This document shows positions 6,967 to 19,892 of a DNA stretch of 24,093 nucleotides, piece after piece. The stretch spans positions 1-24,093 of the IMG/VR virus record IMGVR_UViG_3300017764_000106, one strand, 5' to 3'. The notes under the pieces are model-generated. The model saw only the letters and a list, made by a program, of their open reading frames with translations. It was not told where the DNA came from and did not search any database. The translations under genes were made by a program, and so were the position numbers. Source of the stretch: a virus. Position 1 is the stretch's first letter, and each line of letters starts with the position of its first letter.

Positions 6967-7353
6967 TTATTTGTTATAATTGGGTCTAAATATTTCTAAC
7001 ATACCTTCATATTCATTATTGACATCTTCAAAAGATATTATTCTCATTTTTTCTCCCCAACCTTCTACTTCCATAACCTCACCATTACCAATGAATATGC
7101 TATAGTGTCTTGGTGGGTTGTCTTCCCATCTACCCCAAACTAAAATATCACCTATTTGCATATCCTTAACTTGAGGTAATTTTAGGATTTCTGTTTCATC
7201 TGAAACTAGTTGAGCGAATAATTGACAATTAAGGAAGCCATTTGTAGAGCATATACCTTTACCCATATCAATTAGTTCATCTCTTAGTGAATTAGGGGTT
7301 TCTTCATGTAATTTACCTTCAGCTAAATATTTTTTTAGATCGAAAGAGTCCAT
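6967..7353 (-). CDS. NlpC/P60-like cysteine peptidase with capsid-targeting-like N-terminal tag
   Basis: This is probably a cell-wall hydrolase carried in the virion. Its 128 residues begin with the tag MDSFDLKKYLAEGKL, shared with the next gene upstream (7370-7651). The catalytic core is NlpC/P60-type: nucleophile C43 in NCQLFAQLV, the QIGDILVWG strand at about 66-74, and H83 in HYSIFIGNGEVMEVEGW. A CHAP-type amidase is the main alternative. There is no signal peptide or membrane segment, so secretion by the host is unlikely. The tag contains L-A-E at 10-12, which fits the (L/I)-x-E site cut by the T4 prohead protease gp21 in internal head proteins. I infer packaging into the head and delivery with the DNA. 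A late-type element precedes it, overlapping the stop of the upstream gene. Confidence 0.65.
   Translation of the reverse strand: MDSFDLKKYLAEGKLHEETPNSLRDELIDMGKGICSTNGFLNCQLFAQLVSDETEILKLPQVKDMQIGDILVWGRWEDNPPRHYSIFIGNGEVMEVEGWGEKMRIISFEDVNNEYEGMLEIFRPNYNK
7309..7337. repeat. 29-nt direct repeat, copy 1 (tag-coding)
   Basis: This 29-base stretch is identical to 7607-7635. It encodes part of the shared N-terminal tag (KKYLAEGKL) of the two neighbouring genes and starts 16 nt inside the coding sequence. Identity at nucleotide level, including synonymous positions, points to recent duplication or gene conversion of the tag rather than convergence. Confidence 0.9.
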
Positions 7354-7368
7354 AATTGTTGTTTATTT

Positions 7369-7377
7369 GTTATAAAA
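7369..7377 (-). promoter_or_regulatory. Late-promoter-like element, variant (TTTTATAAC)
   Basis: The coding strand reads TTTTATAAC 15 nt upstream of the ATG at 7353, a one-base variant of the TATTTATAAC element found before the other structural genes. It overlaps the stop codon of the upstream gene. Confidence 0.35.
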
Positions 7378-7651
7378 TTTCACTTGCTAAGTTTTGAGCA
7401 AATTCTTCAACTTCATCAGGGTCATAATCAAATTCTTCTACATCCTCAATAAATTCGGCTTCACCATCAGTTAAAATTCTTGCTAAAACATTTCCTGCCT
7501 CACCTATAGCATATTCTCTATCTTCATCATTTGAAATGTCTAGCATTCTTTCTTTAAAATCTTCTATTTGTTCAGGAGAGAGTTGTATTGATTCTTCTTC
7601 TTTTAGTAATTTACCTTCAGCTAAATATTTTTTTAAGTCAAATTTGTCCAT
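7370..7651 (-). CDS. Small acidic protein with capsid-targeting-like N-terminal tag (candidate internal head protein)
   Basis: The 93 residues start with MDKFDLKKYLAEGKL, the same tag as the NlpC-like protein downstream. The remainder (about 18-93) is strongly acidic, predicted helical, and has no recognised domain; EDVEEFDYDPDEVEEFAQNL near the C-terminus is typical. The L-A-E at positions 10-12 would be a fitting prohead-protease cleavage site. A small, charged, tag-bearing protein matches the character of T4 internal proteins, although those are mostly basic. Function after delivery is unknown. The stop is 16 nt before the NlpC-like start codon, and a TATTTATAAC element lies 18 nt upstream of this start. 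Confidence 0.6.
   Translation of the reverse strand: MDKFDLKKYLAEGKLLKEEESIQLSPEQIEDFKERMLDISNDEDREYAIGEAGNVLARILTDGEAEFIEDVEEFDYDPDEVEEFAQNLASEIL
7607..7635. repeat. 29-nt direct repeat, copy 2 (tag-coding)
   Basis: This copy is identical over 29 bases to 7309-7337 and encodes the same tag segment in the upstream of the two tagged genes. The two copies are 298 bp apart in direct orientation, so recombination between them could delete one gene or swap the bodies behind the tag. Confidence 0.9.
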
Positions 7652-7669
7652 GTTTGTTTATTTTTATTT

Positions 7670-7679
7670 GTTATAAATA
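7670..7679 (-). promoter_or_regulatory. Late-promoter-like element TATTTATAAC
   Basis: The coding strand carries TATTTATAAC 18 nt before the ATG at 7651, in the gap that follows the 203-residue protein gene. It is one of seven close copies upstream of structural genes in this window. Confidence 0.5.
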
Positions 7680-12991: not shown

Positions 12992-13001
12992 GTTATAAAT
13001 A
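12992..13001 (-). promoter_or_regulatory. Late-promoter-like element TATTTATAAC
   Basis: TATTTATAAC lies 12 nt upstream of the ATG at 12979 in the 38-nt gap after the tape measure gene. Just upstream, a 14-nt perfect palindrome (CTCCAAATTTGGAG, 13023-13036) at the end of the tape measure coding sequence could act as a weak terminator. Confidence 0.5.
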
Positions 13002-15806: not shown

Positions 15807-15816
15807 GTTATAAATA
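15807..15816 (-). promoter_or_regulatory. Late-promoter-like element TATTTATAAC
   Basis: TATTTATAAC lies 14 nt before the tape measure ATG at 15792 and immediately after the hairpin at 15820-15845 on the same strand. The terminator-then-promoter order supports a transcription start here. Confidence 0.55.
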
Positions 15817-16861: not shown

Positions 16862-16871
16862 GTTATAAATA
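16862..16871 (-). promoter_or_regulatory. Late-promoter-like element TATTTATAAC
   Basis: TATTTATAAC lies 32 nt before the ATG at 16829 and directly downstream of the strong terminator at 16877-16907. This is the clearest terminator-promoter pair in the window. Confidence 0.6.
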
Positions 16872-17446: not shown

Positions 17447-17457
17447 GTTTATAAATA
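17447..17457 (-). promoter_or_regulatory. Late-promoter-like element (TATTTATAAAC)
   Basis: The coding strand reads TATTTATAAAC, one A longer than the usual form, 25 nt before the tail tube ATG at 17421 and 16 nt after the sheath stop. It would allow extra transcription of the tube gene. Confidence 0.5.
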
Positions 17458-19218: not shown

Positions 19219-19228
19219 ATTATAAATA
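19219..19228 (-). promoter_or_regulatory. Late-promoter-like element (TATTTATAAT)
   Basis: TATTTATAAT lies 38 nt upstream of the sheath ATG at 19180, in a 68-nt gap with no other structure seen. The final C of the usual form is replaced by T. Confidence 0.45.
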
Positions 19229-19882: not shown

Positions 19883-19892
19883 GTTATAAATA
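19883..19892 (-). promoter_or_regulatory. Late-promoter-like element TATTTATAAC
   Basis: TATTTATAAC lies 16 nt before the ATG at 19866, in a 67-nt AT-rich gap after the adhesin block. It is the copy farthest upstream in the window. Confidence 0.5.

Follow-up and report, generated by a model that had tools for sequence, protein, structure and literature searches.

In the present study, a virus record of 24,093 bases (the window, i.e. the whole stretch of DNA analysed) was found to carry two neighbouring genes whose products share a leader at the N-terminus (Table 1). The sequence-only reading had claimed that both proteins start MD(S/K)FDLKKYLAEGKL, with L-A-E at residues 10-12, and that their bodies are then wholly different. 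The ORFs and translations confirm each of these points. Residue 3 is the sole difference over 15 residues, and the 128-aa and 93-aa proteins have nothing in common past the leader. The codons of the two leaders differ by three synonymous changes (TTC/TTT, GAT/GAC, CTA/TTA), and codons 7-15 are identical over 27 bases. A chance origin of the shared leader is excluded because 104 IMG/VR stretches contain the 12-mer FDLKKYLAEGKL without a mismatch.

Table 1. Features of the two tagged genes and their surroundings in the window
Feature	Position	Strand	Basis or remark
Tagged NlpC/P60-like protein, 128 aa, proposed head cargo	6967..7353	(-)	Intact ORF; weak Pfam, PHROG and RipA-type matches
Leader of 128-aa protein, residues 1-15 = MDSFDLKKYLAEGKL; first [LIV]xE is L10-A11-E12	7309..7353	(-)	Conservation of F4, Y/F9, L10, E12
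Second predicted protease site of 128-aa protein, L15-H16-E17	7303..7311	(-)	Sequence; second [LIV]xE within 14 aa in 203/230 tagged proteins
Putative NlpC/P60 catalytic segment of 128-aa protein	7069..7227	(-)	C43 7225-7227, H83 7105-7107, E95 7069-7071
Tagged acidic protein, 93 aa, proposed head cargo	7370..7651	(-)	Intact ORF; body homology to tagged L217 protein
Leader of 93-aa protein, residues 1-15 = MDKFDLKKYLAEGKL; first [LIV]xE is L10-A11-E12	7607..7651	(-)	Conservation of F4, Y/F9, L10, E12
Second predicted protease site of 93-aa protein, L16-K17-E18	7598..7606	(-)	Sequence; second-[LIV]xE count over tagged proteins
Promoter-like TATTTATAACAAATAA upstream of 93-aa gene	7664..7679	(-)	Also present at the tail-tube, tape-measure and hub genes and at further virion genes of the window; putative function
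TTATAACAAATAA upstream of 128-aa gene	7363..7375	(-)	
TATTTATAA(CA) copies	7664-7679, 12994-13001, 15809-15816, 16864-16871, 17450-17457, 19221-19228, 19885-19892	(-)	Predicted late promoter, likely
Family A polymerase-like protein, 420 aa	5632-6894		Homologue of immuto gp001

In its tail sheath the window shares 57% identity with Flavobacterium phage vB_FspM_immuto (immuto), and the gene order is as in immuto: sheath, tube, hub, tape measure, gp36-gp32 homologues, polA, SSB, UvsX, RNase H and helicase. The two tagged genes sit between the gp32 homologue and polA, and in immuto and another relative (G039) tagged genes occupy nearby slots between polA and RNase H. Besides gp001, immuto encodes gp199, a longer polymerase of family A. 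The motif TATTTATAA(CA) lies 15-45 bases 5' of the genes for the gp36 homologue, tape measure, hub, tube and sheath, of a 108-aa gene and of the 93-aa tagged gene, and is absent upstream of the replication genes of the window. At the tagged genes of relatives no clear enrichment of the promoter-like motif was found (7/36 vs 62/514), and the late-promoter pattern holds within the window.

Identity of the two proteins

The earlier assignment of the 128-aa protein to NlpC/P60 stands in part: weak matches converge on it and C43, H83 and E95 are in place, but the family cut-offs were missed. The score against Pfam PF00877 was 14.1 bits (E 0.047, cut-off 23) and against NF033742 12.8 (cut-off 335), and a six-frame search did not detect NlpC/P60 in this protein. 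PHROG 329 (minor tail protein) was matched with E 4e-4, and weak matches to RipA, RipB, the CD1368 hub hydrolase and All1292 were obtained. C43 and H83 are at the positions first read for them, and C43, H83 and E95 have the catalytic order and spacing. In the alignment with RipA, H83 and E95 fall on its 'HVTIYLGNGQMLEA' motif with the H-to-E spacing kept, and the Cys lies outside the aligned part; the RipA triad is C383/H432/E444. The protein thus shares the Cys-His-Glu pattern of RipA, RipB and the CD1368 hub hydrolase and, unlike established members, falls below the Pfam and NCBIfam cut-offs. The AlphaFold2 single-sequence model was poor (pLDDT 51), and Foldseek matches of this model were uninformative. 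With scores under the curated cut-offs and a poor structure model, membership of NlpC/P60 is likely but short of established, and the protein is a probable NlpC/P60-type cysteine peptidase.

Among the loci collected, the body of the 128-aa protein has no relative: one related locus was found, its match confined to residues 1-34, and matches in phages reached E about 0.3 at best. The only NlpC/P60 genes above cut-off in the relatives (G010, G015) are untagged and unlike the 128-aa protein. From its sequence the 93-aa protein is a small acidic domain (net charge -21), and the sole homology of its body is to the C-terminal end of a larger protein with the tag, L217:9708-10262 (-) of G019 (E 3e-23), so the claim of complete divergence between the two neighbours holds.

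A wall hydrolase packed in the head had been called unusual, a view which the precedent of T7 gp16 qualifies. This head-core protein is a lytic transglycosylase, a wall-cleaving enzyme which is kept in the head and ejected, and in this it resembles the proposed NlpC/P60 cargo. It differs in being a large core protein with transglycosylase activity and without a cleavable leader.

An exchangeable leader on unrelated proteins

In all 96 decoded ORFs (96/96) the exact 12-mer lies 2-3 residues past the start Met. The pooled IMG/VR scans gave at least 230 distinct tagged proteins, which fall into at least 120 body clusters, 83 of them singletons; these are lower bounds, as some leader scans gave only the matches listed, and they count sequences and not independent events because the records and leaders are related by descent. 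Of 108 tagged representatives, at most two matched any one Pfam or PHROG family. The tag sought in phage databases on unrelated bodies was therefore found, and many unrelated bodies with no common family do not fit a leader that is part of one conserved folded domain. A short N-terminal leader is thus common to otherwise unrelated proteins.

The leader is N-terminal throughout save in a few fused frames. Internal copies in L052, L064, L027 and L190 retain LAEGKLLKE or LAEGRLLKE, without FDLKKY, at domain joints, as expected if the LAEGKLLKE part were the cutting site and FDLKKY the targeting part. At L232 2528-3781 a tagged protein with a second leader, MEKQFDLKKFLVENKLTSNS, in the same frame was observed in a MAG contig assigned to an uncultured bacterium; this contig is probably phage DNA in a bacterial bin. 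The tblastn search of the 21-aa leader against cultured phages gave no match; with so short a query it is an insensitive test, because immuto carries a leader variant, FDLKKFLVENKLT, which was missed. In cyanophage S-RIM32, Mel-JY01 and LR756508 the tag did not exceed the control rate.

Conservation within the leader was read from unbiased columns, for which only M--FDLKK[YF] was specified and residues 10 onward were free. Among the matches listed, L made up 89% at residue 10 (I 4, V 2) and E 89% at residue 12, with a variable residue 11 (A, V, S, T, K, N, D) between them. When residue 4 was left free it was F in 126/126 of the matches listed, and residue 9, left free, was Y/F in 147/147. A second [LIV]xE occurred within 14 residues in 203 of the 230 tagged proteins (88%), against 46/230, 34/219, 26/200 and 26/174 body windows (13-20%), and its E was mostly +5, +6 or +12 from the first E. 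The L15 codons CTA, TTA, CTT, TTG and CTC were all seen across leaders, so that conservation is at the amino-acid level.

Leaders of other kinds are found on the same cargoes. In 22 cargo families, 58 homologues bear a different leader, and [LIV]xE is present in 53 of these 58, the background being 35% for other N-termini and 24% for internal windows; since leaders of one class are related, these figures count sequences and not independent events. On the Zeta-toxin-like kinase cargo (PF06414, 1e-16) the leader is MNDFDFKKYLAEGRLLKE in one phage but MISLINLLKEA elsewhere. In G039 the HiPIP-annotated cargo starts with MINLLDILSEA, a further cargo family bears MTRLEKLINEVLSEE, and in L044 two leader classes stand in tandem, MDNFDLKKYLAEGKLSKENK and then MIKLTDLINES.

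Several cargoes recur. The Zeta-toxin-like kinase was seen at L017:2713-3537 (+) and in L096, L043, L064, L010 and others, once with the FDxKK leader and in many phages with MISLxxLLKE. The commonest tagged body (L010:9729-10163 (+) and 12 relatives) matches proteins annotated in other phages as 'high potential iron-sulfur protein'. Immuto gp077 (L108 17631-18632), near TerL, starts MADNFNLRSFLTENKLTKNAQLLKE and is annotated as cob(I)alamin adenosyltransferase; it looks like a tagged acidic helical protein, and the annotation is doubtful. In Microcystis phage Mel-JY01 (L288 276-2718), three adjacent proteins have the leaders MIKLKSLLQE/MIKLMSLVTE and related bodies (SDRVWHLT...). This trio is possibly ADP-ribosyltransferase-like, and its leader resembles the second tag class.

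Head genes in tag-carrying genomes

Peptidase_S77, the family of T4 gp21, is encoded by 13 of 29 tag records, by the isolate immuto as gp070 and, among the records of 50 kb or more in a second batch, by 12 of 19; none of the 14 control genomes has it. Among tag records above 100 kb (G009, G010, G013, G015, G019, G031, G032, G033, G036, G039, G044, G049), 11 of 12 had S77, a tally composed after the data were seen. The one without it, G010, has tag spacing as in its near-twin G015 and stops just short of the expected G015-type head module. Two large records with FDxKK but without [LIV]xE had no S77. A gp23 match over cut-off was seen in 16/26 records, most long records having gp23. The order TerL-portal-gp073-gp071-protease-scaffold-gp23 was constant among the records read, and tag arrays of up to six genes lie a few kb upstream of TerL-portal-protease-scaffold-gp23. 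Furthermore, a conserved [LI][VI]xE precedes a Gly-rich stretch in the gp23 homologues (12/12), and near the N-terminus, around residues 5-9, L[IV]E is present in 10 of 12 S77 proteases, comparable with LIE-9 of T4 gp21.

A gp21-type protease, gp23 and a scaffold are thus present in one genome in the relatives and in immuto, and the prohead protease on which the earlier reading depended does exist there. As the window, a fragment of 24 kb, contains no head genes, we infer its own protease from relatives.

Proposed capsid targeting and its alternatives

The sequence-only reading of the leader as a capsid-targeting signal has gained support, as the leader is modular and N-terminal, ends in [LIV]xE and co-occurs with an S77 protease, a gp22-like scaffold and gp23. 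We consider it quite likely that the shared leader is a T4-type capsid-targeting propeptide removed by the head protease, and capsid targeting of the tagged proteins is a prediction well supported by comparison. F4 and Y9 of the leader would bind the scaffold core of the prohead and draw the attached protein in. The gp21-type S77 protease would then cut after the E of [LIV]xE, at E12 and/or E17/E18, to free the mature cargo inside the head, and the cargo would exit with the DNA at infection. Injection into the host may follow as a natural consequence, and is less certain than targeting and protease removal. Cargo of the NlpC/P60 type would perhaps act on the wall during DNA entry.

The leader resembles the capsid-targeting sequence of T4 IPII and IPIII (MKTYQEFIAE; in the T4 record IPIII starts MKTYQEFIAEA) in being N-terminal, with an aromatic at residue 4 and a second aromatic just before [LI]xE, and in its occurrence on unrelated bodies in phages with gp20/gp21/gp22/gp23. 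In T4 IPIII, residues 4 and 7 target and residues 8 and 10 process (PMC9026906). The targeting aromatics Y4 and F7 and the processing residues I8 and E10 of T4 have counterparts here in F4, Y/F9, L10 and E12. Unlike in T4, the leader is longer (15-24 residues), usually has two [LIV]xE sites, belongs to several interchangeable classes, stands on at least 120 body clusters instead of a few, and is found also on fused cargo with internal sites.

Other phages offer partial likenesses. The head-protein propeptides of phiKZ/SPN3US are cut after E by a gp21 relative at redundant sites, and the paralogues gp53/gp54 have an identical 15-residue N-terminus, comparable with the shared leader; unlike here, those propeptides are mostly above 100 residues and the site is A/S-x-E. 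The packaging signal of P1 DarB is similar in that the 30 N-terminal residues suffice to send a reporter to the capsid, but there it concerns one protein, with no array of tagged cargo. The natural exchange of leaders would be indirect support for such sufficiency here.

It is unlikely that the leader only recruits assembly factors of the prohead core, which would be degraded or kept in the head with no injection. T4 gp67 and gp68 are indeed core proteins cut up by gp21, and in G036 a tagged gene stands between those for the protease and the scaffold. Most tagged bodies are acidic (median charge -8), unlike the T4 internal proteins, which are described as basic; this acidity favours assembly factors and counts against the T4-like reading. 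However, the unrelated body clusters (at least 120), including the Zeta-toxin-like kinase, HiPIP-annotated and NlpC/P60-like proteins, look like cargo, and cutting at two sites close to the N-terminus would leave the body whole. A fraction of the tagged proteins may belong to the core or scaffold, to be destroyed and not injected.

That the leader acts as a signal of localisation, folding or expression directed to some other destination, its likeness to a protease site being coincidental, is quite improbable. Short leaders serve other purposes too, but here L10 and E12 are kept while residue 11 is free, the second [LIV]xE stands at fixed distances, swapped leaders retain [LIV]xE, an S77 protease co-occurs, and amino acids rather than codons (five for L15) are conserved. 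A recent duplication of the two genes, or a leader belonging to one conserved folded domain, is scarcely tenable in spite of the 27 identical bases, since the two bodies share nothing, the leader stands on at least 120 clusters and other leaders are found on the same bodies; for the family, unrelated bodies and swapped leaders refute it, and local copying of leader DNA between the two genes may have occurred.

We found in the literature no virion proteomics for any tagged phage, immuto included, and, in the parts of the open-access literature available, no treatment of capsid targeting in this phage group. T4-type capsid targeting itself is already known, and would here be expanded and modular in the relatives of Flavobacterium phage immuto. 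On a broader proposal our judgement is evenly poised: that immuto-related T4-like phages practise mix-and-match injection, in which a few interchangeable cleavable leaders (FDLKKYLAE, MISLxxLLKE, MTRLEKLINE, MKKSELxxxIKEE and others) would direct fast-changing effectors, including enzymes and sometimes polyproteins cut internally, to the head for delivery with the DNA.

If capsid targeting by the leader is true, T4 capsid targeting would widen from a few internal proteins to more than 100 cargo families, and different swappable leaders on one cargo would help to define recognition by scaffold and protease. Many proteins of unknown function would gain a common destination, and head cargo would be testable in the cultured immuto. 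The leader would then be a sequence rule which lists the particle-borne, probably first-entering proteins of many uncultured aquatic phages, and it is among such first-entering proteins that anti-defence and takeover factors would be expected.
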